DNA of 64,000 nt from Cheilinus undulatus (lineage: Eukaryota > Chordata > Actinopteri > Labriformes > Labridae), in NCBI RefSeq assembly GCF_018320785.1, contig NC_054865.1:45158898-45222897 (forward strand). The letters are read 5' to 3'. Of this stretch, positions 5,138-35,380 are shown piece by piece. The notes beneath the pieces are model-generated. The model was not told where the DNA came from. It made no database searches and was given only the letters and a program-made list of their open reading frames with translations. Numbering within the stretch: the first letter of the stretch is position 1; the number at the start of each line of letters is the position of its first letter. The translations under genes were made by a program, and so were the position numbers.

Positions 5138-5621
5138 TCAGTCGTCGTAGTCCCTCCTTGGTTTGTTATTGGGTGGTGTAGGTGGTCCATCACGTCGACG
5201 GTCATCATAGGGTTCATCATAGCGGTCGTCATCATAGCGGCGATCGTCATAGCGCTCATGGCGGTCACTGTACTTGTCACGGCGGTCAGAGTAGTCACTT
5301 CGGCGATCATCGTAGTCAGAGCGGCGGTCGTCGTAGTCAGTACGGCGGTCTTTGTAGTCAGAGCGACGGTCATCGTAGTCAGAGCGGCGGTCATCGTAGT
5401 CAGAGCGGTGGTCATTGTAGTCAGTGCGGCGGTCATCATAATCACTGCGGCGATCGTCATAATCCCTGCGACTGTCATAGTTGCGCTCACTTCGTTCTTC
5501 GTAGCGGTCTGGGCTCCTAGCTCTGGTCTCTTCATGATCTCCTGGGTCCTCTTGACCATCAGCATGGCGACTCTCTCCATTTCTAGTCGGTTCTTTGTCG
5601 GTGTACTCACCCTCCCGAACT
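5138..5621 (-). CDS. gpa33: gpa33-like exon 7: Tyr/Asp/Arg-repeat cytoplasmic tail and stop
   Basis: This is the last coding exon, with acceptor tttccag at 5622 and a TGA stop at 5138-5140. Its first base completes a Gly codon begun in the previous exon, giving AMGVREGEYTDKE across the junction. About 160 residues follow. The centre holds nine consecutive heptads of the form DYxDxRx (mostly DYDDRRS), then degenerate RYDDRRYDDDRYDEPYDD and the terminus NNKPRRDYDD. The tail is highly charged, Tyr-rich and probably disordered. The long minus-strand frame that starts with MKSFISKI here is a different, shifted frame with no splice support. I know of no such heptad array in mammalian GPA33, whose tail has only short DDY-like acidic stretches. 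Confidence 0.85.
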
Positions 5622-8600
5622 CTGGAAAGTGAACAAATACAAACAGGATTTTTGATATGAAGCTTTTCATTTTTTTCTGACCCTGACTTTCAACTGCTGA
5701 CCTAGAACATGGTTGAGCTCAGTTGTGTTGTGTTTGGAGTGTTTCTTTTTGTTTTTAACATTTATTTTAAAAAAAAATGTGGGACCCTCCCACTATCAAT
5801 ACACCATACCTGGAACACTTACATTTTTAAATGTATTTTCATGAATATACTATAAGTCAGTAAATGAAACCAATTTAAACTGGTAGTTCAGGAGGGCATC
5901 TTTTCAAAGAATCTTAAATATGAACAGTATGCAGGTGGAATCTAGTTTAAATTTTTTAAAGCTAAAGACACAGCTTTGTGTGTTTATGCATATTTTTGCA
6001 GGCCAGTATAACAATGACATCTTTTGTATGCTGTTTGCTGGTGTTATTTCATGAAACTGATCAGACCTGCCTACAGAATTGACTGGGCCCCTGAAAAAGC
6101 ATGATTGAAACTGTTCCATTGTTTAACTCCTTTTCACCACTTTTTTTGCCACTAATAACCCACATTCTCTGTGTTTTGCCAATTTTAACACATTTTGCCA
6201 CCAAAGCATTTTTCTCCCTTTTCTTGACACTCTTAACTCATGTCTGCAGGTTTTTTTCCACTTTTAACCACATGTAACCCATTTTTGCAAATTTGGCATT
6301 TTTAACCTGTTTTGCATCTGCCACTTTTTGCCACCTTTAACCCATTTTCTCCACTTTCTTGACACTGTTATCCCATGTCAGCAGCTTCAGCTGCCAATTT
6401 TTCCGCAAATTTTCACCATTTTTTTACACTTTTAACACTATTTGCCACTTGTACTTTAAAGCATTTTTGCCATTTGTGCCCCTTTCAATTCTTTTTGCCA
6501 AACTTGGCCACTTTAAACTAATTTCTGCCACTTTTTCACCACTATTACCCCCTCCTCACCACTTTTTTTGCTATTTAAGTCACAAGTTTGCCACCTTTAG
6601 CCTCTTTTAACCTCTCATTGCCACCTTTATTCAACATTTAAACTATTTTTGGCACTTTAAACCCAGTTCTGCTATGTTTTTTTACCACTTAAACCCATTT
6701 CCGTCACTTTTCATCCAATATTTTTGCGTCTTTTTTCATCAATTTAGTTATTTTTTTCACTTAAGTTGTCTGAATTTACTTACAACTATTTTTTCTGGCA
6801 TCCTGATGTTTGACATTACTTTCCAAATGCTTTAATTCAATGTGCTCATCCACATTGTTATCATTACCCAAAAAGTAATTCTGTTTTAAGAAAAGGGATT
6901 TACATCTTGAAAAAGGCTATACTGTTCTGCAGCATTGATTAATAAAATTGTTTTTGTTGCTCTGATAAGCCTGGTTATTTTTCAGGTTGAAGATAGAATA
7001 TAGTTATCAAGATCAACTTTAACAATGGATCATGATTTTGTCGCTTGGCAGGACCACAGAAAGCTCTCCCTTTTATCTCCCCTGAGTGGCCTTGCACTGA
7101 TGAAAAATCAAATTGCACCATGCATTCTAACATGGAGGCTTGCAAAAAAATTTTAAGTGTCCCTATTTGAAGGGTTGACACGATGATCTTGCAATATCGC
7201 AGGGAGCTTTCCCTTTTTACCCCAGCAGGACAGCCTTGCTGCTAATACACTTTTTGGATTCCTGGGAAAGAATTTACTATGTTTGTTTTTCCTGTGAGTA
7301 TTTGAGACGATTTCAGAATCTCCCTTTCTTAAAATAAGTCTCACACCTGTCATTATCAATTCTGCTTTTTACAGATATGTCTGATATTTTGTGAGTTATG
7401 TTTGGACCTTGTGGCTTTGAGCAGGACTCTAACAACTTTAATTTGCTGCAGTTATATCATTTTCATCCTTTTGTAATGTACATTTTTCTTACAGTGCAAT
7501 ATACATTGTAGCTTGTTCATTATACATCCTGAATGCCTGTTTTTGCTATGTTACATTAATGTATGAAGACATTTTGCTAAATTGTAAAGTGTCTGACAAT
7601 AAAGGCTTGCTATACCCTTTCATTTACAACATAGAATCAGAGACATAACACATATTTTCCATTAGAGAGTGAGAGTGTTTTCATGTGTCTATAAGGGACA
7701 AAATATTTACCCCATGGCATACTCTTCCTTCTCCTTCTTCTTCCTGCAGCAGCAGCAATAGATGACGACGATAAGGATGATCAACCCCAGGACAACTAAA
7801 CCAATGATTAATGCAGTGGAGCCAATGTTCATGGAAGCTGCAAAGAGAAGGATGCACTTTGAAATAAACTATTGCCCAGGTTTATTTGTCTTGGCAACCT
7901 TTCCTTATAAAATATCATGATCAACAGGATTAGAAGATGTCTCTCACGTGGCATGACTGCGAGGGTGACGTTGCAGGTCTTAGCACGGATCTTGTTACTG
8001 GAGGTGCAAATGTAGAAGCCTGATGTGTCTTTGGAGATATTGAACAGAGACAAGATGCCATTCTCTGAAAAATAAAAAGAAAGTAACAATAATAAATCAC
8101 AGCATTCAGTATGAAAAAATACAGGAGGCTTGAAGACTTTTGAGTGCTTGTTATCAACGATTTTTTTTAGGAGATGTTGATTTTACAATGCTTTGATGCT
8201 TCTGGTGTACAAGAGTCCTTATCATTGTGCATCAGTAAATCAAATGTCAATCAAATGTTGTATGCAGAACTCCATTACAGTGATCGGGCAAAAAGTGGCC
8301 TTACCAGTGTGTCAAGATGCACAACCAGAGGTGCACTGATTGTAAAAATGTGGGCCAACACCAGTATTTAAAAACAATTTGGCTGACTGCTGATGCAAAT
8401 GTTTTTATCTTTAGTTTGAACACCTTAATTTGGTGCAAGTCTCACAAAATAAAATGTCCAACAAGTAATTTCTTCTGCTTTTCTCTGAATCAGTTGTTAG
8501 GTGAGTGAGATGGCAGCAGGCTCAACACCAGGATTACAATTTTATTTCACATAGTTTTGGTTTGGCCTGTAACTTTTAAAATTTAAGCTGGCTACTATGT

Positions 8601-11600
8601 GCTGTGCTTTTTTAAAAAAAGAAAATGATAAACGTGTTTCTCTTAAACACTTAGCCTATGATATAGACAGCCTACTATAGGTGTTTACTCCACAAGACAA
8701 CATTGAGAAGGACTGTAAATGTCCTGTACATGAGTAAGTACATGATTTAATTACATTCTTTAATAAAATGTAAGTATTTAAGAGCTTTTAATCATCAAAC
8801 ATTGACAATTGATTATAAGTTGTTATACTAGATTGCTTCTAATGAGATTCACATTTGTTTGACTGGTCTTTAAAGAGCCTATAAATTCACTTAAATGAGT
8901 GGTTCCCCAGGAGAGTCGCCAAAAAATCTCAGGGGGACCGAGGACCTAGGACCCTGTCTGCTCTTACTTCATCAAAATTAGATGTATTTTTTAAAAATAA
9001 TATTTAGAAATATTGTGTATGACAGCATATCAGGGCCAACCTAAGAATTTAAAAGGGAGAAGAATTTGTTAATTTATGAGCAAAAAAGTCAAAATTTTAG
9101 GAAAAGAAAACTTTGAGATTATATAGTCATATAATTACAAGAAAGCACATTCAAAATTTCAGAGTTTATAAAGTCAGAAATGCACAAGAAAAACTGGAAA
9201 TTTCCAAGTTTAAAAAGTCTTAAAATTGACAGTAAAAACTCAAACATTTCAAGTTTTTAAAAAACATAAGTTATAACCGTATTATGTCAAAAAATTTACC
9301 AGAAACCAAACCGAAAAATTCAAAGTTTGTTTCTTGTACATTTGCAACTTTAAAGTAAAAAAATATAGTTGTTTTCCCATGAATGAATGACTATTTAAAC
9401 CTGATAATTACTCCAAAAAGTCTTTTCTTTAAAATAAACAGTTCCTCTTCATTATTGTTTTTCAAGAAGAGACTGTCATAATAATGGATAATCTATAAGC
9501 TTAAATAAATCTTTGTCAAGAACAAGTATATTTAGGCTATTATGTTGGGAGTCTTTCAAAGAAAATGTTTGAAACTAATGTTTAATTCTTACAAGTGGGT
9601 CCTGGGGGATGCTTGACTTTTCTTAGATAAGAGTAGGGGGGCCCTGAGACATAAAGGTTGGGAACCACTGAGTTAAATGATGGAATTCATCCTCGGCAGT
9701 GAACTGCGTTGACCCTAAAAACACAACCCGTGTTTTAAGTTGAAGTCCTGTGATTACTGAACAGTACACGCCACCCTGCTGTTTAACTTTACACATCAAA
9801 CGTGTGAAAATTAACCCTTCATTGGCTGCAGAACAGATACTTCCAACTTGTCTACCGAGTGATTTCCCCCATTATGGAGCTGCTCTTTGTGTAAAATTGG
9901 CCGGGGTTATAAGGAACAATAGTCCTATCAGGAATTGCATAAGTTAAACTTACTGTCGGTGGTTCTGGGGGCAAAAAGGCGAGGCGTGTTCTTGACGTCT
10001 CGACTCTCCCACTTGTAGGTGGGCGGTGGGGAGCCCTCCTCAGAAAAACACGTCAGGTTGATGTTCTGGCCATACTCTGCCTTTCCCTCGATCTTACAGA
10101 TGGGAATGGAGGGAGCAACTAGAAAAAAACAAATGTTGAATTACACCATTATTTGTCTTTAAAAGTGCAAAACTCACTAATCTAGTGAAGTTAACCAATA
10201 TCAGTGCAGAGGTTCCCAACTGGTGGGTCAGGATGCAAATGTGGGTCAAGGATTAAACTTTAAAATAAGGATTTTAAATGTCATTTAGCAGATGCTTTTA
10301 TCATAAGCCACTTAAATCTTTGGATTTATCTAACTGATTGCTGTTGCTAAGCATCTCCCCCTTATTTCTGCATTTTCCGCTTCACATTCAGTGCCTTTTT
10401 CCTCTTCTCTTTTTCCCTGCAGCTTCCTCTTCTTTCAGCATCTTCTCTTTTTCTGCATCCTTCCCTTCTTTCTGCATCCCATCTGTTGTCTTTCTCCCTC
10501 TTCTGTCTTCATCTTCCTCGTCTGTCTCTCACCATCTCTCGCTTCTGTCTTTTGCATCTCCCTCTTCTGTCTTTTGTATCTCTCACTTCTGTCTTTCTGC
10601 ATCTTCTTCTGACTGTCTGCATCTCCCTCTTCTGTCTTTCTGCATCTTCTGTCCTTCTGTATCTCCCTCTTCTGTCTGCATCTTCTGTCTGTCTGCATCT
10701 GCCTCTTCTGTCTGCGTCTTCTTCTTCTGTCTTTCACCCTCTTCTGTCGTTCTGCATCTTCTGTCTGTCTGCATCTCCCTCTTCTGTCTTAATATCTTCC
10801 TCTTCTGTCGTTCTGCATCTCCCGCTTCTGTCTGTCTGCAACTCCCTCTTCTGTCTGTCTGCATCTCCCTCTTCTGTCTTTCTGCATCTCCCTCTTCTGT
10901 CTGTCTGCAACTCCCTCTTCTGTATGCATCTCCCTCTTTTGTCTGCACCTCCCTCTTCTGTCTTTCTGCATCTTCTTCTGTCTTTCACCCTCTTCTGTCT
11001 GTCTTCCTCTTCTGTCTTTCTGCATTGACTGTCCCCTTGCATCTCCCTCTTCTGTCGTTCTGCATCTTCTGTCGCTCTGCATTTCCCTCTTCTGTCTTTC
11101 TTCGTCTTCCTCTTCTGTCCCTCTGCATCTCCCTCTTCTGTCTGTCTGCAACTCCCTCTTCTGTCTGTCTGCATCTCCCTCTTCTGTCTGTCTGCCTGCA
11201 TCTCCCTCTTCTGTCGTTCTGCATCTTCTGTTGCTCTGCATTTCCCTCTTCTGTCTTTCTTCGTCTTCCTCTTCTGTCCCTCTGCATCTCCCTCTTCTGT
11301 CTGTCTGCAACTCCCTCTTCTGTCTGTCTGCATCTCCCTCTTCTGTCTGTCTGCCTGCATCTCCCTCTTCTGTCGTTCTGCATCTTCTGTCGCTCTGCAT
11401 TTCCCTCTTCTGTCTTTCTTCATCTTCCTCTTCTGTCCCTCTGCATCTCCCACTTCTGTCTGTCTGCAACTCCCTCTTCTGTCTTTCTGCATCTCCCTCT
11501 TCTGTCTGTCTGCATCTCCCTCTTCTGTCTGCCTGCCTGCATCTCCTTCTTCTGTCTGTCTGCATCTACTTCCTCTGTCTGCATCGCCCTCTTCTGTCTG

Positions 11601-14600: not shown

Positions 14601-17600
14601 TCTGCAACTCCCTCTTCTGTCTTTCTGCATCTCCCTCTTCTGTCTGTCTGCATCTCCCTCTTCTGTCTGCCTGCCTGCATCTCCTTCTTCTGTCTGTCTG
14701 CATCTACTTCCTCTGTCTGCATCGCCCTCTTCTGTCTGTCTGCATCTCCCGCTTCTGTCTGTCTGCATCTCCTGCTTCTGTCTTTCTGCATCTTCTTCCT
14801 TTGTCTGTCTGCATCTTCCTCTTCTGTCTGTCTGCAACTCCCTCTTCTGTATGCATCTCCTCTTTTGTCTGTCTGCATCTCCTCTTCTGTCGGTCTGCAT
14901 CTCCCTCGTCTGTCTGTCTGCATCTCCCTCTTCTGTCTGCATCCTCCTCCTCTGTCAGTCTGCATCTCCCTCTTCTGTCTGTCTGCAACTCCCTCTTCTG
15001 GATGCATCTCCCTCTTCTGTCTTTCTGCATCTCCCTCTTTTGTCCCTCTGCATCTTCCTCTTCTGTCTGTCTGCATCCCCCTCGTCTGTCTGTCTGCATC
15101 TTCCTCTTCTGTCTGCTTTTCCCTCTTCTGTCTTTCTCTATCTCCCTCTTCTGTCTTTATGCATCTTCTTCCTGTCTATGCATCTCCCTCTTCTGTCTGT
15201 CTGCATCTCCCTCTTCTGTCTTTCTGCATGTTCCTCTTCTGTCTTTCTGCAACTCCCTCTTCTGTCTGTTTGCATTTCCCTCTTTTGTCTTTCTGTATCT
15301 CCTTCTTCTGTCTGTCTGCCTGCATCTCCCTCTTCTGTCGTTCTGCATCTTCTGTCGCTCTGCATTTCCCTCTTCTGTCTTTCTTCATCTTCCTCTTCTG
15401 TCCCTCTGCATCTCCCACTTCTGTCTGTCTGCAACTCCCTCTTCTGTCTTTCTGCATCTCCCTCTTCTGTCTGTCTGCATCTCCCTCTTCTGTCTGCCTG
15501 CCTGCATCTCCTTCTTCTGTCTGTCTGCATCTACTTCCTCTGTCTGCATCGCCCTCTTCTGTCTGTCTGCATCTCCCGCTTCTGTCTGTCTGCATCTCCT
15601 GCTTCTGTCTTTCTGCATCTACTTCCTTTGTCTGTCTGCATCTTCCTCTTCTGTCTGTCTGCAACTCCCTCTTCTGTATGCATCTCCCTCTTTTGTCTGT
15701 CTGCATCTCCCTCTTCTGTCGTTCTGCATCTCCCTCGTCTGTCTGTCTGCATCTCCCTCTTCTGTCTGCATCCTCCTCCTCTGTCAGTCTGCATCTCCCT
15801 CTTCTGTCTGTCTGCAACTCCCTCTTCTGGATGCATCTCCCTCTTCTGTCTTTCTGCATCTCCCTCTTTTGTCCCTCTGCATCTTCCTCTTCTGTCTGTC
15901 TGCATCCCCCTCGTCTGTCTGTCTGCATCTTCCTCTTCTGTCTTTCTCTATCTCCCTCTTCTGTCTTTATGCATCTTCTTCCTGTCTATGCATCTCCCTC
16001 TTCTGTCTGTCTGCATCTCCCTCTTCTGTCTGTCTGCATCTTCCTCTTCTGTCTTTCTCTGTCTCCCTCTTCTGTCTTTATGCATCTTCTTCCTGTCTAT
16101 GCATCTCCCTCTTCTGTCTTTCTGCAACTCCCTCTTCTGTCTGTTTGCATTTCCCTCTTTTGTCTGTCTGCATCTCCCTCTTCTCTCTGCCTGCCTGCAT
16201 CTCCCTCTTCTGTCTGCATCCTCCTCCTCTGTCAGTCTGCATCTCCCTCTTCTGTCTGTCTGCAACTCCCTCTTCTGGATGCATCTCCCTCTTTTGTCCC
16301 TCTGCATCTTCCTCTTCTGTCTGTCTGCATCCCCCTCGTCTGTCTGTCTGCATCTTCCTCTTCTGTCTGCTTTTCCCTCTTCTGTCTTTCTCTATCTCCC
16401 TCTTCTGTCTTTATGCATCTTCTTCCTGTCTATGCATCTCCCTCTTCTGTCTGTCTGCATCTCCCTCTTCTGTCTTTCTGCATGTTCCGCTTCTGTCTTT
16501 CTGCAACTCCCTCTTCTGTCTGTTTGCATTTCCCTCTTTTGTCTTTCTGTATCTCCCTCTTCTGTCTTTTTGCATCTCCCTCTTCTGTCTTTCTGCATCT
16601 TCTTCCTCTGTCTTTCTGCATCCCCCTCTTCTGTCTTTTTACACACCCCTGTAGAAGTTTTGGCAGGGTTCCCTGACTTCGTACCTGAGATCTGGCCTGC
16701 AAAATCAGGGATGACTCCAGAATCACTTCTTAAATCTTACCTTTGCAGACTTGCTTTTAGTTGATGCCACACATTTAAATGCATTTCTAAAGTATGTTTT
16801 AGTTATGATTCTTTCTGCTTTTAATTTGTTCATCTGTTCCCAGTTCCTTTCTTAATGTCGCTCATTGCTTCAGTTTTTAGACCATCTTTTCATCTGTTTT
16901 TATCTTTCCTTTATTTTCTCTGATGTTTTCATGTTCTTATAATATTGTCTTTTCCTTTATTTCTCTAATTGTTTAGTACTTTAACTGCCTATTGAGTTTA
17001 CCCTTGCATTACTTTTATTTGTGTACATTCCTGCTAAACTCATGTGTTAACATTTTGCTCTTGCCTTGCCTGATTGGCCTGATTGCTTATCATTCATGTG
17101 TTCCTGCCTTTGCTTTGTCTGGTAAAATTCTTTGTAAATTATACATTTACAGGTTTTATATATATAAGTTATTATGGAACTCTAATCAAGAAAAAGAGAT
17201 GGTATTGACAATGAATCAGCTAAAAACAAAGTGTCTCTCAAGGACACAAAACCACGGTACATGAATTGAAGACTTGTTGTAACACTGGGATGCAACCAAT
17301 TGGATAAGAGGAGGTATTACTTTGATGATCTACTTCCCCAAGATGTGGCATTTCACTTTTGCATCCACTGCAGTAAATGATACACACTACAAGCTAACAT
17401 CTTAAAGGACATCTAAATATTCAGTTCAGTAAATTTCACTAACCAGACACATTATGACATCCTTTCATTTTTTTTTTTTTTTTGTCTACTCATGAACACT
17501 TCAGAATTTTCCTTTAACAGAGATTCAGTGTTACCCAGGACAATCAGACGAGCTGTGTCGGCCGGCTTGCCCTCATCATCCCCTGGGATCTGGACACGGC

Positions 17601-20600
17601 ACTCAAAATCCTTGTTGTCCTCCAGTGTGATCCTGTTCAGTTTCAGGTCAGCTTTTCCCTTTGCAACATCCACGTCAACAGACACTCGACCTTCATATTT
17701 TTGTTTGATGTCAGTAACCTTAGACGGGTAGTAGTGTGTGAGAATCAGGGTCTGTGGGACAACAACAGCATTAGGGGAGCATTTAAAAAAAGGAGGCTAA
17801 CTTCTCCTGATATCTTACCATTCATGTTAATGAATAATTATTCAATGAGTTATGATCTGACAGAATCATGCTCATACAGTATTCAAACACAGAGCAGCAG
17901 TCTGACCTCTTTAGCACCAGCTTGAACTCCCTCCACAGACCATGAAATGATGACAGCTTTTTTATTGGACAAAGTTGTGAAGGTGCAGGGTAATGTGATG
18001 TTGTCACCCCTGGCATGCTCATAGGTCTCTTGTGGGATGTTCACCTGGAGGGCGCCAACACCAGACAAAACTAAAAGTTTGGAAAAAAGACCAAGTTAAT
18101 TCTTAGAATTTGTCCACCATGTCCTGTCATATACAAAAATCAGTAAACTGAGCTCAAGTAGACATAGTTACCAGGACAATCTGACGACATCACAGTTACT
18201 GGGTGTTTACCATCAATGAATCAGCAGCAGAACATGAGATCAGTACAAATATCATATTAACCCATCCCAAGCCTGCTCATGGAGTTCTAGACCTCTGAAA
18301 AACTCAGAGAATGGGCCCTCCCAGGTTGTGATTTATTAATGTCATCAGTGCATGTGTGTTGGATCAGTAGCATTAGTGCTAGTGTCTTAGCTAAAAGTTC
18401 ACTATTTGACAAATTGTAACTGTCTATAGCCGTCCACTTTGTCCCCTTTATTGCTCTAATAACCTGGGGTTTTGTTTGCCAGGCCTTGCTCTCTTTGGAC
18501 AGGTTTCACCAATTATTGCTACCCTTTCACAGTTTTTTTTTTACCATTTTTTACCCACTTTTTTAAACAAATCTTTGTCTTTCTTGACCCATTTTTGCCA
18601 CGTTTAATCTCTTGTTGCTACTTTTTAATAATATAATAATAATGTTTTTTATATAGCACCTTTCAAAAACAGCAAGGTCACAGTGTGCTTTACAAAGAGA
18701 TAAAAGAACACAAGAAATAAATGCAAAGGTACAATTTTAGCCCCTTGACATTACTTTAGCCACCCATTTTGTCTCCTTTTTTCCACTTGTCTCTTATAAC
18801 TTACTCTCTCCATCTTTTGCCAATTTTTACCACTTTTTAACTTTTTTTTTCCATTTTCTGCCCAATTTAGACACTTTTTTCCTCTCTGTATGCCATTTTT
18901 GGGATTTTTTGACACCTTTCATTTATTTATTTATATTACAAGTTTTACCATTACGCCCATTTTTTCCCACTAATTTTTGCCTTTCTTAAACCATTTTGCC
19001 ACTTCTAATCTTTTTTGTAGGGTTTTTTTTTTTTTAACCAGGATTAGTATTTCAAAAGTGCAAAATAAATCTCACAAAAAAGAAATATTCCACAAAACAC
19101 AAATACATTTCATTTTAATATTTTGTGTTTCGTGAAATTTATTTTGCCCTTTTGAAACATAAATCCTGTTGGCCTTCAGGGCCACCGTATATAACAGTAC
19201 TAAAACAAACTATTTTTGTCACTTTCTTGCTATTTTTCACCGTTATTGCAACTCTTGCCTATTGTTGACCTTTTGCCAATTATTGCTAATTATCACCATT
19301 TTCTGCCTATTTTTGTTACTTTTATCCCACGCTGGATCCTATTTAACTTATTTTTTGCCAGTTTATGAAACCTTTCACAAACTATTAGCTACCTTTCATT
19401 TATTTATTTAGCCCACCTATTTTATAGTTTCCACCACTTCATGCCCATTTTTCCCACAATTTTTTGCCTTTCTTAACCCATTTTGCCACATTTAACCCTT
19501 TTTTGTGTTTTTTAAAGCCATTAACCGTAGTTTAACTTACAATTTTTGTCACTTTTTTGCTGTTTTTCACCTTTATAACCCTTTTTCTTGCCACTCTTGC
19601 CTATTGTTGACCTTTCAACAGTTATTGCCACTTTTAACAGTTTTTCCCCATTTTCTGCCCATCTTTATTTTTTATCCCTTTTGAATTTCTTACCTCATTT
19701 TTGCCACTTTATGACCACTTTTTTTCTGCCAGTTTTTGCCTCTTTTACCTTATTTTGCCAATTTACTCCCTTTTTCCTCTTTTGGCAGTTAGGTTATATC
19801 AAAACGTTTTTGTTAAAGCTATTTCAGTTCTTTCCACTTTATTCTCTGCTATCCTGGCTAAGCCATGAAGTCTGACATAACTTTCCAAATGGTTTAGTCA
19901 ATGTGCCCATCCACAGTATAAACATTAGCAAAAAAAAGACAGTTCTGTTTCCAGAAAAGGAGGTTACATTTGAAAAAGGCTCTATCCTACTAGACAACAA
20001 ATAAATACATTTCATTTTCTTACATGATTTGCAATTATTCAAGCTATGGTTATCACCGATTATCACAGATAAAAATTTAAAATGGGCCACGGTTTTCCTC
20101 ACCTCCATGGGAGAGGTTTCTGGGTCCCAGAAACCTCTCCCCTTTACTCCCCCCTATGAGCGGCTTTGCCCCATCCTCCTAATCACAGGCACACACTGGT
20201 TTTAAACTTTTAATGCTTCTCACTCAAAAAATAAGTCAACATTAAGAGGAAACGGATCACAGTTTGAACGACTTTGTTATTTTTAAAGATAAATTGCTGT
20301 TCTTGTTTCTAAATCACGTTTCATACATTATTTGGCGTGAAAAGTAATGCTTTCTTATCATCTGCAAAACTGTTACTCCGTATTTTTGGACTTTGTGAAG
20401 AATTTGTGAACAAAGCAAGCAAAGGATGCTCAAAACGTTGTAGTCCGATCAGTGGAGACAGAAAATCATTTTCTACAGCGCTCAAACATTTGGAGAAGTC
20501 TCATTCATGGCCTTGTTAGCACCACTCCTGTACACCGATGTCAAAGTAGAAAGGCCGAAATAAATACCATGAATATTTAATTACGTTGGTTTGCATGGGT

Positions 20601-20842
20601 CTCCTGGTACCTACGTTTAAGTTTGGTCCGCCTGTATCATTCTTAAGAGAAAATATTGACTAAAAAACAAGGCAGAGAGACAGACAGCCATACACAGGCC
20701 GCGGCCCTGCTCAGTGTCTGAATACCTGAAGGCACACAAACAGGTGTGGCAGCTAAGCAGGACGCAAAATGAAGAAGCCTTATTTCTCACAAAAATACTC
20801 ACCCAGAAACAGCAGAGACAAGCTAGAAATCCTCCCCTCCAT
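5138..20842 (-). CDS. gpa33: gpa33-like cell-surface A33 antigen (CTX-family Ig membrane protein), proximal gene model
   Basis: Seven exons join in phase: 20842..20803, 18070..17907, 17751..17535, 10118..9954, 8064..7948, 7837..7711, 5621..5138 (1314 nt, 437 residues). Every internal boundary is GT-AG. The order is signal peptide, V-type Ig split over two exons (a CTX-family hallmark), C2-type Ig split over two exons, one membrane helix, a CCCC+basic motif and a long cytoplasmic tail. Family-specific landmarks include LIVLVAPSIPICKIEG after the V domain, KDTSGFYICTSSN in the second Ig and AVMPPSMNIG before the helix; all align with mammalian GPA33, an intestinal epithelial adhesion-type protein. 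The mammalian protein is about 319 residues; the extra length here is the repeat-built tail. The helix and Ig features show a plasma-membrane location; an epithelial role is inferred from the family. The V-domain exons, signal exon and promoter are duplicated further upstream. Other CTX members (VSIG, CXADR, ESAM) are less likely given the landmark matches. Confidence 0.85.
5186..5490. repeat. in-frame 21-bp coding minisatellite in gpa33-like exon 7
   Basis: Plus-strand copies of gtagtcagagcggcggtcat-like units recur every 21 bp (nine clear copies at about 5284-5470) with degenerate flanks. The period is a multiple of three, so expansion keeps the tail frame. Because of it, several other frames are also open here; those are shadows. 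Confidence 0.85.
6120..6780. repeat. degenerate ttttgccacttttaaccc low-complexity repeat
   Basis: Irregular tandem runs of tttttgccacttttaaccc-like words (~20 bp) in the gpa33-like tail intron. The same family fills 18.5-19.8 kb and 24.6-25.5 kb and appears inverted at 62.3-62.7 kb. Confidence 0.75.
7711..7837 (-). CDS. gpa33: gpa33-like exon 6: transmembrane helix and juxtamembrane motif
   Basis: 127-nt exon with acceptor tttgcag and donor GTAAAT. It encodes SMNIGSTALIIGLVVLGL and continues into a hydrophobic run ending YCCCCRKKKEKEEYAMG. The single helix followed by four cysteines (likely palmitoylated by analogy) and lysines sets type I topology. It matches the GPA33 arrangement of PSMN, helix and YCCCC. 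Entry phase is one base carried over from MP-C; exit phase is two bases (GG). Confidence 0.9.
7948..8064 (-). CDS. gpa33: gpa33-like exon 5: second half of the C2 Ig domain
   Basis: 117-nt exon (acceptor ttttcag, donor GTGAGA). It encodes NGILSLFNISKDTSGFYICT then SSNKIRAKTCNVTLAVMP. It contains the DxxGxYxC-type F-strand motif (DTSGFYIC) and the G strand, plus NIS and NVT glycosylation sequons. KTCNVTLAV corresponds to human QFCNITVAV, including the family-specific extra cysteine. Confidence 0.9.
8897..9670. mobile_element. 774-bp non-autonomous hAT element with target duplication
   Basis: Ends gagtggttcccca and ttgggaaccactg are inverted repeats. The flanks acttaaat (8889-8896) and agttaaat (9671-9678) are an 8-bp target duplication with one mismatch. 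The interior is AT-rich and noncoding. It sits in the gpa33-like intron between the C2 half-exons. Confidence 0.75.
9954..10118 (-). CDS. gpa33: gpa33-like exon 4: first half of the C2 Ig domain
   Basis: 165-nt exon (acceptor ttttctag, donor A|GTAAGT). It encodes APSIPICKIEGKAEYGQNIN then LTCFSEEGSPPPTYKWESRD and on to APRTTD. The LTC B-strand cysteine and the YKW core tryptophan mark an Ig C2 fold. PICKIEG aligns with the human PECGIEG, again with the extra A33-type cysteine that pairs with KTC in the next exon by family analogy. The 23-bp satellite begins about 200 bp upstream in the intron. Confidence 0.9.
10205..10275. mobile_element. hAT end fragment
   Basis: The gaggttcccaactggtgggt word plus the following ggatgcaaatgtgggtca resembles the sequence at 36597-36690. 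It is the typical degraded terminus of a teleost hAT element. Confidence 0.45.
10330..16640. repeat. 6.3-kb pyrimidine-rich 23-bp minisatellite with higher-order repeats
   Basis: The basic unit is about ctgcatctccctcttctgtc plus tgt (23 bp), with ctttctgcat and ctgcaactcc variants. The monomer contains no stop triplet in any frame of either strand and 23 is not divisible by 3. Huge open frames therefore appear in all frames; these are not genes. Higher-order structure is visible. A 1.70-kb unit repeats (tgcattgact at 11021 and 12722; aatatcttcc at 10791 and 12492), a ~456-bp block recurs (gcctgcctgc at 11531 and 11987), and a ~986-bp unit repeats at 14172 and 15158. It lies in the gpa33-like intron between the V and C2 exons. 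Confidence 0.95.
17535..17751 (-). CDS. gpa33: gpa33-like exon 3 (proximal): second half of the V Ig domain
   Basis: 217-nt exon: acceptor cccacag before ACC, donor CTGG|GTAAC. It starts in phase 0 and encodes TLILTHYYPSKVTDIKQKYE, then GRVSVDVDVAKGKADLKLNR and ITLEDNKDFECRVQIPGDDE, ending ARLIVL. ITLEDN...FEC is the V-domain E-F strand signature with the second canonical cysteine. If the donor is ignored the frame stays open into the intron, with an SLLKENSEVFM tail. Confidence 0.9.
17907..18070 (-). CDS. gpa33: gpa33-like exon 2 (proximal): signal-peptide end and first half of the V Ig domain
   Basis: 164-nt exon (acceptor cttttag, donor GAG|GTCAGA). It encodes LSGVGALQVNIPQETYEHAR then GDNITLPCTFTT and ISWSVEGVQAGAKE. 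The predicted signal cleavage lies near GVGA-LQV. NITLPC supplies the first Ig cysteine and a sequon, and ISW the core tryptophan. It ends in phase 0, as V half-exons in this family do. Confidence 0.9.
18480..19800. repeat. ttttgccac-type low-complexity repeat in proximal intron 1
   Basis: The same degenerate word family as at 6.1 kb, interrupted by an inverted-repeat MITE (about 19035-19190) and a short tatatagcacctttcaaaa retroposon-tail fragment near 18648. The matching block in the distal unit is 24600-25500. Confidence 0.75.
19035..19190. mobile_element. inverted-repeat MITE (proximal copy, left end truncated)
   Basis: Arms ...ggattagtatttcaaaagtg and tttgaaacataaatcctgtt-ggcc are inverted. 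The right end is gggccaccgt. It is homologous to 25098-25312 and was duplicated with the host segment. Confidence 0.6.
20803..20842 (-). CDS. gpa33: gpa33-like exon 1 (proximal): start codon and signal peptide
   Basis: 40 coding nt encode MEGRISSLSLLFL plus one base, with donor G|GTGAGT. Joined to exon 2 the signal reads MEGRISSLSLLFLV-LSGVGA. The ATG has a purine at -3 and G at +4 (ggaaATGg). The exon is too short to show as a long ORF. It is identified by its near-identical twin at 25871..25910 and by phase. Confidence 0.8.
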
Positions 20843-21060
20843 TTCCTCTCGTTTGTTTTCTTAGACAGCCCTTCCCTGGCTCTTCTCTGTAATGTTGTTT
20901 TGTCTGAAATTAAACAAAGATCCGGAGTCGCCCGGTGCGTATTTGCATCGAAACCTGTCAACGTCCTCAAAACGATGCGCTTAATGGGTGCGGCCACCGC
21001 CTCTGGATGACTGACAGTCGTCTCAGCCAATCAGAAGCTCCTGTCATACAGGTATGCTTT
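20843..21060 (-). promoter_or_regulatory. candidate promoter/5'UTR of the proximal gpa33-like unit
   Basis: Upstream of the proximal ATG, about 200 bp is almost identical to the region upstream of the distal copy. It includes an inverted CCAAT box (plus-strand ccaatca near 21026), a GGGTGCGGCC GC/KLF-type box near 20986 and an octamer-like ATTTGCAT near 20940. No clear TATA box is seen. Human GPA33 is reported to respond to KLF4 and CDX1, so the KLF-like box is suggestive only. Confidence 0.4.
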
Positions 21061-21592
21061 ACCTGCCTGCTCGGCGTGTTTCGGCTTGTCCTCTGATCCC
21101 GTTTACCTCAGACTTCAGGGATACTCCTGATAATCTGTCCAGTTTGTTGGATCATTTCACTCTAATTCAAGAGCTTACTACCAGACACTGTCACAGTATG
21201 TTTTAGCTTTAGTGTTCGACATCAACACAACATAGTTTTAAAAAGAATTTGTTCTTTGTTAATACTGTTGGAGAGGGAAACACGCAAGGAGTGTTATATG
21301 ATCAACAAAGCCAGAGTGTGTGAGTTTGTGTGGGTGGTGCAGCTAAAAACTGAAGTGTTGTTGGAACAAGAGAAGCAATTTCCTCCTGTCAGACTGGTTC
21401 GACAACTCAGGACAGCCTATTCGGCTATAACCTGGGGGCACCCACGCAAACATGGCTGAAAGAGAAACAGCGTGGATTTCATGAACTTATTTAATGCACA
21501 TCCTCTTTAGACCTGTTAAACTGCTGAATAAAATACCTTTGAATGACTTCATGGACCTCAAGCTGGTTTCAGAGTCTGGGTCAAGCCTCACC

Positions 21593-23254
21593 CTCTATTG
21601 TGTTGTGTTATAGCGCCGCTCAGTGTATGAAACCGGAAATTATATGAAGCGCTTCCTGTTTTTGCACGATGGAAACAGAAAAACGACAAAAAAATAATAA
21701 TTATGATCAGAAATATATCGCTGGTGGATTCATCCCGGTAGGAAACAGAAAAAGGCATCAAATTTGACAAACATTATTTGTTAGAGCAACAGTGCCTGTC
21801 TTTTTAAATGAAAGTAACACCAATAAAATCTAACATGTATTTAAAATGTTATAATATAAAAGAAAAAAAGTGGGGTGCTCATTGTTTTCTAATTTTAAGT
21901 AGAAGTCAGAATTATGAGATTATAGATTGATGAAAAGGACGGACGGACTGAAATTGAAGTCTGAATTTTAAGATCAAAGTAAACATTTTCAGATTAAAGT
22001 CAGAAGAATAATGCACTTAAACCCCAGCATAGCAATTGGGATTTAACACCCTTTTATTTAAGTTCCTCAGTATTTTTCAGCAAACACAAGCAATAAATCA
22101 TCTCTAATATAACCAACACAGTATTAGATAGATTCATCATAAACTGTTCTTCTCTGTAGGCCTGGACTATATGTTAGGATGAAATCAGATAAAGCAGGAA
22201 TCTTTATGAATGACATATTTTTATTCATCTGCTTCAATCACATTAGTAGATTGACTAATTTTCTTTACTTGCATTAATGGAGGCAATCATCATCACAACT
22301 AGCCAAATGATTTTGAAATGTGCAAATGAGATTTTTATTTATTTATTTATTTATTTATTTATTTTCACTCATATTGCAAATTACATTGCAATGTGAGTTG
22401 TTGTTTTGAAACTGGGGCGGGGCCAGACAAGTCAAATGAGAAAATATATATTTACTGTAAAGGCTGAACACGATTCTGTCTTTGCATTACATAACATTTC
22501 ACTCCAAGAGACCAGTTAACAAACAATTGGCCTTAAGGAAAGACTCAGATGGCAGGCAGAAAGGCAATAAAGTCCATGCACAAAGACTTAGTCCAAATAC
22601 AAACCTACCTCTACCCCTATTCCTAACATTTGTGCCTCGGGGCTGGATATCCCAGTTCTTGTTAGAATGGAGGGCAGGGGTACATGCCCCCTTAAACAGA
22701 GATTTCCAGAGACATCCTCTAAACTGAGGAAATCTCATGGAATGTTTTATCAGAAAAATGGCTGCTCAAGCCTTAAGAGTGCACAAATTTAGGCAGTTTC
22801 TTCATACAAAAGATATGAAAAATATAACAACCATTTCATATCATGATTCAATCTTTCATTGCCTGTTGTGACTCTGATTTGAGGGGCAGGGGGGTGCTGG
22901 AAAATAAGGGGTAGAAGTAAAAGTTAGAAATGGACTAAGCCAAAAAAAAAAAAAGAAAAGAAAAGAAAAGGAAATAAGGCAGCAAATAAATCCAAACAGA
23001 GAGCATGAAATAATAAAAAAAAAAACAATCAGAAAACAGAGACATGGAATCAAACATGAGAAGATACCAAAACGAGGTTCCACAATGAGAAACGACTACG
23101 AACTGGCAGCATGAAGAAAGACATACTCTGACTAAGTACACAGACAATCAGAGGATGAGGAGGCACAGGGACTGGTAGTCAAGGTGGGGCTGATACAAGC
23201 AGGAGCATGGAGAGGGTCTGGGGGGGCTAATGGTGCTTAAACATGTTGCTAAGC
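21593..23254. other. unique spacer between duplicated units
   Basis: No exon seen. It contains an (ATTT)n microsatellite at about 22330-22363 and an AAAAG-rich run at about 22940-22972. The missing C2, transmembrane and tail exons of the distal unit are not here. Confidence 0.7.
22330..22363. repeat. (TTTA)n microsatellite
   Basis: About eight uninterrupted TTTA units. Confidence 0.95.
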
Positions 23255-23670
23255 TCTTGCCTTGCCTGATTGGCCTGATTGCTGATCATTCATTGAGTTT
23301 GCTTTGCCTTGTCTGGTAAAATTCTTAGTAAATATATACATTTACAGGTGTTATAAAAATAAAGTTATTATGGAACTCTAATCAAGAAAAAGAGATGACA
23401 TTGACAATCAATCAGCTAAAAACAAATTGTCTCCAGAGGACACAAAGCCACGATACATGAATTGAAGATTTGTTGTAACACAGGGATGCCACTGATTGGA
23501 TAAGAGGAAGTATTACTTTGATGATCTCCTTCCCAAGGATGTGGCGTTTCACTTTTGCATCCACTGCAGGAAACATAATACACACTACCAGCTAGCATCT
23601 TAAAGGACATCTAAATATTCAGTTCAGTAAATTTCACTAAATATTTAACCAGAAACATCATGACATCCTT

Positions 23671-23946
23671 TCATTTTTGTCCACACATGAACATTTCAGA
23701 ATTTTCCTTTAACAGAGAGTCAGTGTTATCCAGAACAATCAGACAAGCTGTGTCGGCCGACACGCCCTTATCATCCCCTGGGATCAGGACACGGCACTCA
23801 AACATCTTGTTGTCCTCCAGTGTGATCCTGTTCAGTTTCAGGTCAGCTTTTCCCTTTGCAACATCCACGTCAACAGACACTCGACCTTCATATTTTTGTT
23901 TGATGTCAGTTATCTTCAGTGGGTAGAAGTGTGTGAGAATCGGGGT
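23671..23946 (-). CDS. distal V-domain exon with lost splice donor
   Basis: The acceptor cccacag matches the proximal copy and the coding part to 23730 has the same 217-nt length. The G|GT donor position (23730/23729) reads G|AT. The frame continues 19 codons into former intron and stops at 23671-23673. It has gained a cysteine (ADTACLIVLD, where the proximal copy has Arg). Confidence 0.6.
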   Translation of the reverse strand, partial: TPILTHFYPLKITDIKQKYEGRVSVDVDVAKGKADLKLNRITLEDNKMFECRVLIPGDDKGVSADTACLIVLDNTDSLLKENSEMFMCGQK

Positions 23947-25910
23947 CTGTGGGACAACAACAGCATTAGAGGAGCATTTTAAAAAAGAATGGAGAACTTC
24001 TCCTGACATCTTATCATTCGTGTTGATGAATAATTATTTAGTGAGTTATGATCTGACAGAATCATGCTCATACAGTATTCAAACACAGAGCAACAGTCTG
24101 ACCTGTTTAGCACCAGCTTGATCTTCCTTCACAGACCATGAGATGATGACCAATCTTTTTATATCGGCCGAAGTAGTGAAGTTGCAGGGTAATGTGATGT
24201 TGTCACCCCTGGCATGCTTATAGGTCTCTTGTGGGATGTTCACCTGGAGGGCACCAACACCAGACAAAACTGAAAGTTTGGAAAAAAGACCAAGTTAACT
24301 CTTAGAATTTGTCCACCATGTCCTGTCATATATAAAAATAAGTAAACTGAGCTCAAGTAGACATAGTTACCAAAACAATCTGATGTCATCACAGTTACTG
24401 GGTGTTTACCATCAATGAATCAGCAGCAGAACATGAGATGAGTACAAATATCATATTAACCCATCCCAGGCCTGCCCATGGAATTCTAGGCCCTTAAAAA
24501 ACCCAGAGAATGGGCCCTCCCCAGATCAGTAGCATTGGTGCTAGTGTCTTGGCTAAAAGTTCACTATATGACAAATGGTAACTGTCTATAGCCGTCCACT
24601 TTTGTCCCCTTTTTTGCCTTAATAACCTGGGTTTTTGCCACTTTTTGCCTCCTTTGGAAAGCTTTCAACAATACTTTTTTACAATTTTTCACCCACTTTT
24701 TTGAACAATTCTTTGTCTTTCTTGACCCATTTTTGCCACGTTTAATCTTTTTGCAGCTTTTTTAGCCCATATACATTACTTTAGCCACCCATTTTTGTCT
24801 CCTTTTTTTCCACTTGTTTCTTTTATAACCTACTGTTGCCACCTTTCGCCAATTATTACCACTTTTGAAACTTTTTTTTTTTACCATTTTCTGCCCAATT
24901 TAGTCACCTTTTTCCCCACTATATATCATATTTTCGTCTTTTTTGGCATTTTTTTTGACACCTTTCACCAACTATTACCTTTCATTTATTTATTTTCCAA
25001 GTTTCACCACTACACCCATTTTTTCCCACTACTTTTTGCCTTTCTTGAACCATTTTTGCCACTTCTAATAGTTTTTAGTAGTTTTTTTTTACCCTGTAAC
25101 TATGGTGGCCCTGGAGGCCAACAGGATTAATATTTTAAAAGTGCAAAATAAATTTAACAAAACACAAAAATATTTCACAAAACACAAATACATTTTATTT
25201 CAATATTTCTTTGTTTTGCCAATTTTTCTTTTTTTTTTTTTTCTTTTTTTTTGAGATGTATTTGTGTTTTGTGAAACTTTTGAAAATTAATCCTGTTGGC
25301 TTTCTGGGCCACCGTCTATTACAGTACTAAAACTGACCATTTTGCTCACTTTCTTGGTATTTCTTGCATTTATAACCCTTGTTGCAACTCTTGCCTATTG
25401 TTGACCTTTTGCTAATTATCACCATTTTCTGCCTATTTTTGTCACTTTAATCCCACACTGGATCCTATTTAACTCATTTTTTTTTGCCAGTTGTTGAAAC
25501 CTTTCACAAACTATTATTAAGAGGTTTCTGGGTCCCAGAAAGCTCTCCCCTTTATGAGCAGCCTTGCCCCATCCTCCTAACCACAGGCACACACTGGTTT
25601 TAAACTTTTAATGCTTCTCAATAAATCAACATTAAGATGAAACTCATCACAGTTCAGACGACTTTGTTATTTTTAAAGATAAATTGTTGTTGTTTTTTTT
25701 TCTAAATCACGTTTCATACATTATTTGAAGTGAAATGTAGCCTAATGTTTTCTTATCACATACAAAAATGTTACTCTGTAATTTTGGACTTTATGAACAA
25801 TTTGTGAACAGGTGTGGCAGCTAAGCAGGACGCAAAATGAAGAAGCCTTATTTCTCACAGAAATACTCACCCAGAAACAGCAGAGCCAAGCTAGAAATCC
25901 TCCCCTCCAT
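23671..25910 (-). CDS. distal gpa33-like V-domain module; predicted secreted V-only protein or young pseudogene
   Basis: Exons 25910..25871, 24269..24103 and 23946..23671 join in phase to 483 nt (160 residues plus TGA). It starts MEGRISSLALLFLV-LSGVGA, then a V domain with NITLPC, ISWSVKE and ITLEDNKMFECRVL. All splice sites are intact except the last donor: the proximal CTGG|GTAAC is here CTGGATAAC. Translation would run on through DNTDSLLKENSEMFMCGQK to a stop. No internal stop or frameshift exists before that. There is no membrane segment, so the product would be secreted. I found no AATAAA within about 400 bp downstream on the minus strand, so polyadenylation is unproven. Alternatives are splicing from the distal exon 2 (phase 0) to the proximal V exon, giving a mosaic V domain, or simple non-function. 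Confidence 0.55.
24103..24269 (-). CDS. distal V-domain first half-exon
   Basis: 167 nt, one codon longer than the proximal copy (FTTSADIKRLVIISW versus FTTLSNKKAVIISW). Acceptor ctttcag and donor CAG|GTCAGA are intact. It ends in phase 0, so it could in principle splice to either V second-half exon. Confidence 0.65.
24600..25540. repeat. ttttgccac-type low-complexity repeat in distal intron 1
   Basis: Counterpart of 18480-19800, with the full-length MITE embedded at 25098-25312. Confidence 0.75.
25098..25312. mobile_element. inverted-repeat MITE (distal copy, more complete)
   Basis: Left ggtggccctggaggccaaca and right ttggctttctgggccacc are inverted termini of about 28 bp around an A/T-rich, partly palindromic core. 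Confidence 0.7.
25871..25910 (-). CDS. distal signal-peptide exon
   Basis: 40 coding nt, MEGRISSLALLFL, donor G|GTGAGT intact. It differs from the proximal exon by Ser to Ala in the hydrophobic core. Confidence 0.65.
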
Positions 25911-26125
25911 TTCCTCGTTTGTTTTCTCAGACTCTGGATGCGGCTCTTCTCTGTGATGCTGTCTTGTCTGAAATTAAACGAAGATGTGGAGTCACTCGGT
26001 GCATATTTGCATTGAAACCTGTCAGCGTCCTCGAAATGATGCAATTAATGGGTGCGGCCACCGCCTCTGGATGACTAACAGTTCTCTCAGCCAATCAGAG
26101 GCTCCTGTCATACAGGTATTCTTTA
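25911..26125 (-). promoter_or_regulatory. candidate promoter of the distal module
   Basis: It retains the proximal unit's ccaatcagag CCAAT box, GGGTGCGGCC box (near 26050) and ATTTGCAT. This implies that the promoter was duplicated with the exons and has not obviously decayed. Confidence 0.4.
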
Positions 26126-26489
26126 CCTGTTTACTTAGCATTTTTCTGTGTAAGTTTGTGTGGGTGGTGCAGCTAAAAACTGAAGTGTGTTGTTGGAACA
26201 AGAGAAGCAATTTCCTCCTGTCAGACTGATTCAATGTCAATTTAGGACAGTCTATTTGGCTATAATCTGGTGGCGCCCACGCAAACATGGCTGAAAGAGA
26301 AACAGCGTGGCTTTCATGAACTTATTTACTGCACATCTTCTTTAGACCTGTTAAACTGCTGAACAGGAAAACCTTAGAATAATTTCATTGACCTCTAGCT
26401 GATTTCAGAGTCTGGTTCAAGCCTCACTCTCAGGGTTGCCAGGTCCATTTCACCTTGGGTTGACCTGGTTTCACCTGGGGTGGTGTCCT

Positions 26490-27240
26490 CCTGGGTTTCC
26501 TCAGGTCTGCCATGTTTGCGTGATGTTGGTGCTTGTGATCCAGCATGAAAGCGTTGTTATGACTGTTTTCGAAAAGAATCCAAAGCCGAATTGTAGGTGG
26601 GGGATAAGAAGTGTCTCAGTCCGCCGCCTCTGTTCAAGGATGGTTTCTCCAGTTGAACAAAGATGGCCTCCTTGACACCTCTTTCAAACCAGCGGTCTTC
26701 ACTGGCCAGTATCCCAACATTGCTGTCCTCAAAGGAATGTCATGTATCCTTCAGATGTAGGTGAACAGCTGAGTCCTGGCCAGAGTTGGCTCTCCTGTGT
26801 TGGGCCATGCGTTTATGTAGTGGTTGTTTTGTTTCCCTGATGTCAGAATCCCTGCATTCTTCAGTGCATTTCACGGCGTATACCACATTGCTCTGTTTGT
26901 GTCTGGGGGGTTTTGTCCTTAGGGTGAACTAGCTTCTGTTGCAGTGTGTTAGTGGGTTTGAAGTGTACCGGGATGTTCTGTTTCTGGAAGATCCTCCTGA
27001 ATTTCTCTGATACTCCAGACAAGTATGGAACAATGCTATGTCGCTTGTTGTTCTCTTCTTCCCTGTTGGTCACCAGTTTCTTGGAAGACTTGACGAAGGC
27101 CCACCTGGGGTACCCGCATGTTTTCAGGGCTCCCCTGAGGTGTTGGTGTTCCTTCTTCTTGCCCTCCAACCTCGTCGGTATCTTCTTATCCCTGTGCTGA
27201 AGAGTTCTGATGACACCCAATTTGTGTTCCAGTGTATGGT
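26490..27240 (-). mobile_element. Penelope-like retroelement fragment (RT C-terminus and GIY-YIG region)
   Basis: Minus-strand translation gives LEHKLGVIRTLQHRDKKIPT, then ALKTCGYPRWAFVKSSKK, VSEKFRRIFQKQNIPVHFKP and NTLQQKLVHPKDKTP, followed downstream (shifted frames) by KQPLHKRMAQHRRANSGQDS-like and DRWFERGVKEAIFVQLEKPS-like GIY-YIG endonuclease motifs. These are diagnostic of teleost Penelope-like elements. It is broken by frameshifts and not functional. Confidence 0.85.
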
Positions 27241-27269
27241 GAGAGTTAAACACAAACACAAACATGTGT

Positions 27270-27640
27270 CCGTCAGTTATGGACTTTCCACAGCAGATAA
27301 AGCAGCAGTTCTTGACTGGCCTGCACAGAGTCCTGACCTCAACATGATAGAACACCTTTGGGATGAATTAGAGCGGAGACTGAGAGCCAGGTCTTCTCTT
27401 CCAACATCAGTGTGTGCCCTCACAAATGTGCTTGTCTTCTGGAAGAATGGTCAAATATTCCCATAAACACACTCCTAAACCTTGTGGAAAGCCTTCCCAG
27501 AAGAGTTTAAGCTGTTATAGCTGTAAAGGGTGGACCGACATTGTATTAAACCCTATGGATTAAGAATGGGATGTCACTTAAGTTCATATGAGAGTCAAGG
27601 TGGGTGAGCGAATACTTTTGGCAATATAGTGTACATAGAA
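27270..27640 (+). mobile_element. Tc1-like transposase 3' fragment and terminus
   Basis: The translation has LDWPAQSPDLNMIEHLWDEL then ERRLRARSSLPTS, the C-terminal catalytic block of Tc1 transposases. It ends with tacttttggcaatatagtg, a typical terminal-repeat sequence. The 5' half is missing where it abuts the Penelope fragment. Confidence 0.85.
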
Positions 27641-34070: not shown

Positions 34071-34974
34071 TTTTACCCACACTCATGAAATCGGCAGGGG
34101 GTTATGTAAAGGATTCTGTATCTTTCTATCTTTCTTTGTTTGTTTGTATGTGTACAAGATAACTTGACAACGGAAAGTCGGATCTTCACCAAACTTTCAG
34201 GGAATATTGGGATGGTGGCAGAGAAGAATCAATGACATTTTGGTGATGATCCATGAACCCGTTCGGTTTTTCTCGGACGTCGAATTTTGAACACCATAGT
34301 AATCAATGGGAGTGTGACTTCCTCGGTGGCGCTGCTTCGACATGGGTCTGCCGCCTCAGATGGCCATTCTAGTTTTTTTTTTGTTTTTTTGGGGGGGGGT
34401 GTCAGGTTAATGAATGATATGCTGTGCTATGAAAATATAACCTGTTCAGTGACTGTAGTGTTTTGGAGGCTGTGGCTAATGAACAGTAGCACACATGTCA
34501 ACCTGTCTTGAGCAGCTGAGTTTTAATTCATATATCACCCCTGGATATTGGCATATTTGCCATTGTTTCTTTCAAATCACACCTAGTAGGCTACTGAACT
34601 TTGAAATCCAAGAATTATCATAAAAACAAAACTGCTCTTTGGCGCCATTGTTCCCTGAGAACACAGAACAGTTTTTTTTAATTGTTTTATAATTTGTGTC
34701 TCTCATTCTGCCTGTATTTCCTTATTTTACACCAGTTGTCTTGAACCAGCTTTTAAAAACTAAAGTCAGGGTCTTTTCCTGCTTGTGTGAAATCATCCAA
34801 TAAAAGAAATTATTATCTGTGTTTTCTGTTTTTTTATTAAGCTCACTCAGGGTCCCTATGACCCCTTCTCTCTGCCAGAAAAAAACAATCCCTAACGTTG
34901 GAAATTAAATTGTCACCACTCTACACCTCTGAGAAACCTATTTCCCCTGTTATATGTGGTGAAAACGAACAGCC

Positions 34975-34998
34975 ATGCTGAGTGGATGCTTTCTTTGA
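34975..34998 (+). promoter_or_regulatory. possible overlapping upstream ORF at grpr
   Basis: ATG CTG AGT GGA TGC TTT CTT TGA starts 11 nt before the chosen start in another frame and ends after it. Its -3 base is G, whereas the main ATG has T at -3. If it is transcribed, scanning ribosomes may skip to the ATG at 35010. Confidence 0.35.
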
Positions 34999-35380
34999 CC
35001 GTGGAGGAGATGGAGCATCTGTGCCCAAACGCGTCGCGCTGCGTCACTGCTCTCCAAAGCTCGGCAGGGATGATGTGGTTCACCGGCGTTGCCATCGCTG
35101 CAATTTACGGTGTGATCAGCGTATTCGGACTTATTGGTAACATTACACTCATCAGGACGTTTTGTTCGGCCAAATCCATCCGCAATGTGCCAAATCTGTT
35201 CATGTCCAGTCTGGCTCTGGGGGACGTTTTACTGCTGGTGACCTGCGCTCCGGTGGACGCCAGCCGCTACCTGTCAGAAGAGTGGCTGTTCGGGAGGGTG
35301 GGCTGTAAAGTCATCCCCTTCATTCAGCTCACTTCTGTTGGGGTGTCAGTGTTCACGCTCACTGCCCTCTCTGCTGACAG
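34986..35380 (+). CDS. grpr: grpr exon 1: N-terminus to the DR of DRY
   Basis: It encodes the extracellular N-terminus (NAS sequon) and TM1-TM3, ending ALSAD-R with donor ACAG|GTAGGA. The frame is open from 34956, but that begins with GTG, so the ATG at 34986 is preferred. A short out-of-frame ORF (34975-34998) overlaps the start. Confidence 0.9.

Follow-up and report, generated by a model that had tools for sequence, protein, structure and literature searches.

Among the CEACAM paralogues, exon read-through, secreted forms and gene conversion between copies have been reported (PMC13278318, PMC7042247). For changes at the +1 position of a splice donor, both exon skipping and read-through into the intron are discussed (PMC3613373). 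In Nile tilapia, gpa33 copy number differs between the sexes (PMC4176596), and the copy number of this gene therefore varies in fish.

We analysed a 64,000-nucleotide stretch of DNA from Cheilinus undulatus (hereafter the window), which lies on contig 1 of a genome searched over 1.17 Gb and 46 contigs. On its minus strand, a complete receptor gene (the parent, or proximal copy) stands beside a second, distal set of exons. The parent resembles teleost GPA33, of the CTX/CAR/A33 group of the immunoglobulin superfamily, in having a signal exon, two V half-exons, two C2 half-exons, a transmembrane exon and a tail, whereas the distal copy has signal and V exons only. Comparison of the two copies suggests that the distal set is probably a tandem copy of just the 5' part of the GPA33-like receptor gene, without an independent function. 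Within the parts of the literature returned by our search, there was no report of such an arrangement for A33-like genes.

The parent gene and its relatives

The parent gene (20842-5138, minus strand) has seven exons with GT/AG ends and one open frame of 437 residues, within which V, C2, transmembrane segment and cytoplasmic tail all lie. In the exon descriptions, a slash marks the exon border.

20803..20842, minus strand: parent exon 1, signal peptide
17907..18070, minus strand: parent exon 2, V half 1
17535..17751, minus strand: parent exon 3, V half 2, donor TGG/gtaaca
9954..10118, minus strand: parent exon 4, C2 half 1, Ig domain match
7948..8064, minus strand: parent exon 5, C2 half 2
7711..7837, minus strand: parent exon 6, transmembrane segment, then a CCCC cluster
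5138..5621, minus strand: parent exon 7, cytoplasmic tail rich in RDY/DDR, with the stop

Pfam searches of the parent protein returned V-set at 53.3 bits and Ig_3 at 58.0 bits. Of the solved structures that aligned over both domains, CAR entries were best (4.7e-23, with CAR rows from 5e-23 to 5e-10), and no A33 structure was among the matches listed for the protein. We take the gene to be putatively GPA33/A33-like, from its family features; CAR is the best solved relative. Parental intron 3 contains a large minisatellite (window 10338-16676, unit ~23 bp), the plus strand of which is open for 2112 codons as a consequence of the repeat. Elsewhere in the window, the plus strand carries three exon-like pieces of a bombesin-type GPCR (34896-35384, 46767-47237 and 50254-50601); the first best matches gastrin-releasing peptide receptor (1.7e-47), and the first two match 7tm_1.

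A protein search of the genome gave 19 matches among the best candidates scored, comprising four rows from the window copies, two from an A33-like paralogue on contig 15 (G000:C15:37099510-37103574) and 13 weaker V-like matches. In the contig-15 paralogue, V and C2 are each divided between two exons as in the parent; identity is ~41% for V half-exon 2 and 60-70% for the two C2 halves. The idea that a retrocopy might prove splicing was rejected, as a third close copy was absent among the best candidates scored.

Extent of the duplicated block

The distal and proximal blocks differ at 321 of 3034 ungapped columns, a match far beyond chance.

23253..26431, minus strand: distal duplicated block, from the 5' flank through signal exon, intron 1 and both V half-exons into the first part of intron 3
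17057..21595, minus strand: matching proximal block
21070..21312, minus strand: 243-bp stretch of the parental 5' flank without a distal counterpart, single copy in the genome

Homology ends at 23253/17057, well before the parental C2 exons (10118 and below), and therefore the distal V set never had its own C2 exon; transmembrane and cytoplasmic exons were likewise never part of the copy. The sole C2 found downstream of the distal copy is the parent's, which lies behind the parental first exon and V exons. An initial annotation of this DNA had taken the last distal donor as one that should lead to the C2 domain, and had proposed a soluble decoy born by the loss of that donor. The C2 in question is a parental one, beyond the limits of the duplication, and the account of donor loss needs to be changed, because the duplicate never held such an exon.

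The copies share 98% identity over 110 bp that run from exon 1 into intron 1, and a 205-bp block ~35-240 bp upstream of the ATG has 87% identity. Over the 5' flank the copies differ at 63 of 514 columns. The putative promoter, previously described as intact, is thus only partly retained, with the 205-bp block kept but the 243 bp of parental flank at 21070-21312 missing. Both copies keep the octamer ATGCAAAT ~100 bp upstream of the ATG (minus strand, window 26012 and 20948).

Most of the ~1.66-kb spacer between the blocks occurs once in the genome, and the spacer contains an old repeat. We rejected the spacer (21600-23250) as one mobile element, as its repeated part is the inner ~22023-22410 only. 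Directly upstream of the 5' end of the distal block (26431), broken coding pieces lie on the minus strand at 26552-27367; these presumably resemble a Penelope-like retroelement.

The distal exons and the lost donor

The distal copy consists of three exons (d1 to d3), the last of which reads into former intron.

25871..25910, minus strand: d1, distal signal-peptide exon, donor TGG/gtgagt, exact border location
24103..24269, minus strand: d2, distal V half-exon 1, donor CAG/gtcaga, exact border location
23730..23946, minus strand: d3, distal V half-exon 2, acceptor kept, donor lost (TGG/ataaca)
23671..23729, minus strand: read-through tail in former intron; the last base of d3 and the tail make 19 codons, then TGA
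23682..23687, minus strand: GT present in the distal copy only (CAT/gtgtgg, last exonic base 23687), a possible weak donor
22058..22363, minus strand: first canonical AATAAA signals past the distal stop (22363-22339, 22225 and 22058), 1.3-1.6 kb downstream

Proximal exon 1 and d1 share 39 of 40 bases, and d2 is longer than its proximal counterpart by one codon. Neither a stop nor a frameshift is present in the distal V exons, and the sole coding indel preserves the frame. Joined and read through, d1, d2 and d3 give a frame of 160 amino acids with a stop that ends at 23671. These results bear out the initial annotation on the signal exon and both V half-exons being in frame, on the donor change from G/GT to G/AT (proximal TGG/gtaaca, distal TGG/ataaca), and on the read-on of 19 codons that completes a 160-residue frame. 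At the end of the exon that matches d3, the contig-15 paralogue keeps a GT donor (TGG/gtgaga); the distal change is therefore most simply derived.

With ten essential splice bases at stake, the chance that one or more of them would change is 0.35 at half the divergence between the copies and 0.58 at the full divergence. Before the loss, an intact d3 donor could only have allowed splicing into the neighbouring parent gene; an in-frame join to parental exon 2 could have given a V-V-C2 protein of 565 residues.

Two ways of restoring splicing after d3 were considered and rejected. The best GT within 23260-23859 is that at 23687, which scores 4.79 against 3.21 for the weak donor of parent exon 3 (here and below, donor scores come from a matrix of human sites), and a junction there is out of frame to parental exon 2 and to C2, with 172 and 163 amino acids before a stop. 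Donors of U12-type AT-AC introns are of the ATATCC type, from which the changed ATAACA differs.

Splicing of the distal exons to the parent gene

If the distal set is a partial duplicate without a function of its own, its donor was presumably lost by ordinary drift. Were the distal first exon transcribed, d3, which has an acceptor but lacks both a donor and a close poly(A) signal, would mostly be skipped, and skipping would give either unproductive RNA or a joining of distal exons to the parent. Unspliced or read-through RNA that encodes a V-only protein would be scarce at best, and such an mRNA would need read-through to the AATAAA signals 1.3-1.6 kb away.

The joining of distal exons to the parent leads to the foremost of the alternatives, which is nevertheless improbable: the distal promoter with d1, or with d1 and d2, may supply alternative 5' exons of the parent gene. 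In-frame splicing of d1 or d1+d2 onto parent exons is an option that the initial annotation did not consider. Joining d1 to parent exon 2 would yield a full membrane receptor whose V domain is unchanged, and joining d1-d2 to parent exon 3 one whose V domain is a hybrid. By conceptual joining both are in frame and keep the parental tail, at 437 and 438 amino acids, and the loss of the d3 donor makes d3 skippable. Neither the d1 nor the d2 donor scores below its parental counterpart (8.78 against 8.78 and 6.98 against 5.94, respectively), and the 98% identity from exon 1 into intron 1 also fits this reading. However, joining d1+d2 to parental exon 2, the nearest acceptor past d3, shifts the frame and brings a stop after 78 amino acids, and the divergence of the 5' flank and its missing 243 bp also count against this reading.

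Coding potential and divergence of the distal copy

The secreted V-only protein favoured by the initial annotation ranks below alternative 5' exons, and we consider it unlikely that the distal copy has this function. It would be made from the distal promoter by read-through of d3, with a 3' UTR of at least 1.3 kb, and an equally unlikely role for it would be that of a soluble ligand or decoy for the partner of the parental V domain. The complete frame speaks for such a protein, as do a signal peptide (judged by eye), the presence of both canonical cysteines and the tryptophan of the V-set, and a V-set model score of 39.6 bits (43.0 for the proximal copy, cut-off 26). There is human precedent for read-through to a soluble product in ACE c.3691+1G>A (PMC3613373), and zebrafish jama2, near jama, no longer has a membrane anchor and is a predicted secreted protein (PMC3399880). 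On the other hand, the product contains two extra cysteines without obvious partners, at residue 137 (G strand) and in the tail.

The tail itself appears to be ordinary intron of unremarkable length. It differs from the proximal intron at 7 of 59 bases (52/59 match), the parental intron is open in the corresponding frame too, and 33% of nearby frames picked at random extend for 19 codons or more. Neither AATAAA nor ATTAAA occurs between 23670 and 22364, that is, within 1.3 kb of the distal stop, and the AATAAA signals beyond lie within a short A/T repeat and an old interspersed repeat, which also counts against a secreted product.

Between the distal and proximal copies, dN is 0.0896 and dS 0.0843, a ratio of 1.06, and nearby non-coding divergence is 0.0831; neither dN nor dS differs from the non-coding value (Fisher p = 1.0 for both). 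Overall, this comparison points to no net coding constraint since the duplication, which counts against a functional secreted protein. For 10-35 random substitutions, the chance of no stop arising in 140 codons is 0.76-0.37, and the open frame is therefore weak evidence of function. The absence of frameshifts speaks for a functional protein: nearby non-coding DNA has 8 indel events in 897 columns, from which 3.75 would be expected in 421 bp where no frameshift was observed. The chance of no indel is 0.023 if both branches were neutral and ~0.15 if half of the events fell on the distal branch, in a test that is noisy because a single stretch accounts for 6 of the 8 non-coding events.

The replacements are also unevenly placed, in 2 of 53 codons of the A-B-E-D sheet but in 19 of 65 codons of the G-F-C-C'-C'' face and loops (p = 0.0002), and their rate on the face is higher than the non-coding divergence (p = 0.006); these p-values are optimistic because the split was drawn after the differences had been seen, with strand borders taken from a CAR alignment and general V-set landmarks. 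This bias favours a functional V domain. A stronger version of that reading would be a secreted protein whose binding face diverged under selection from that of its epithelial, membrane-bound A33-like parent, a receptor/decoy pair that would have arisen by 5'-only duplication and fixed donor loss. We regard this stronger version as more doubtful still. Synonymous changes share the bias (7 of 46 sites on the face against 0 of 35; p = 0.017), which selection on a protein does not predict. Conversion between the two copies, which lie 6 kb apart, is therefore as good an explanation of the pattern as selection.

With the contig-15 paralogue as outgroup, three amino acid changes were assigned to the distal branch and three to the proximal, leaving 15 of 21 without an assignable branch; for nucleotides the counts were 10, 11 and 13. 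By comparison with this outgroup, which is only ~41% identical in V half-exon 2, the distal copy appears to have evolved no faster than the parent. Codons in which all three bases had changed (3 of 140) were rejected as a sign of selection, as non-coding triplets in three registers gave 10 of 1348, and the excess is small. Taken together, the rates of divergence appear neutral overall and their distribution uneven.

The least probable reading, that an unexpressed distal copy serves as a reservoir and exchanges V-domain tracts with the parent to give mosaic divergence, draws on an identical run of 105 of 1252 columns (the longest, reached in 29 of 5000 shuffles), on low-divergence windows that span exons and introns alike, on the rarity or absence of replacement and synonymous changes in the same tracts, and on the exchange of tracts between CEACAM receptors and decoys (PMC13278318), but differences in rate along 4 kb also arise by chance, no direction from donor to recipient emerged, and conversion can coexist with a partial duplicate.

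Interpretation

We therefore rank a dead or near-dead duplicate first, as the probable reading, with alternative 5' exons, a secreted V protein and conversion without expression following in that order and each unlikely, the last markedly so. Nothing in the rates, the donor change, the tail or the poly(A) spacing appears to require a function. Relative to the parent, the distal copy carries a disabling change in its lost donor, and its 3' exons are absent. The early-stage pseudogene that the initial annotation had offered as its alternative agrees with these losses and with the neutral overall rates; it fits less well with a frame free of stops and frameshifts and with the uneven changes. The absence of a frameshift, the clustering of replacements on the presumed binding face, the equal rates and the distant AATAAA signals count against simple decay.

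As it stands, the locus mainly illustrates that an uninterrupted frame with a tidy splice change may seem designed for a purpose even when the numbers match drift. Expression would make it a clear example of a soluble immune-type V domain produced by 5'-only duplication and a single donor change beside an intact parent, and the locus supplies exact junctions for testing.

Comparison with known systems

Three described systems resemble the distal copy in part. Human ACE c.3691+1G>A (PMC3613373) shares a +1 G>A donor change with read-through into the intron, a short new tail and loss of the anchor. Unlike the change in the distal fragment, it struck an otherwise complete gene, and both mRNA and protein were shown. 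The CEACAM decoy paralogues (PMC13278318, PMC7042247) are likewise duplicates that have the ligand-binding V domain of their parent; unlike the distal copy, they comprise several full genes, and their secreted isoforms are confirmed by cDNA in cattle. Zebrafish jama2 (PMC3399880) belongs to a related receptor family and is also a paralogue near its parent that lost the anchor and is predicted to be secreted. However, jama2 retains its Ig ectodomain, gained a coiled-coil exon and was cloned, whereas the distal copy has one domain only and is known here from its sequence.
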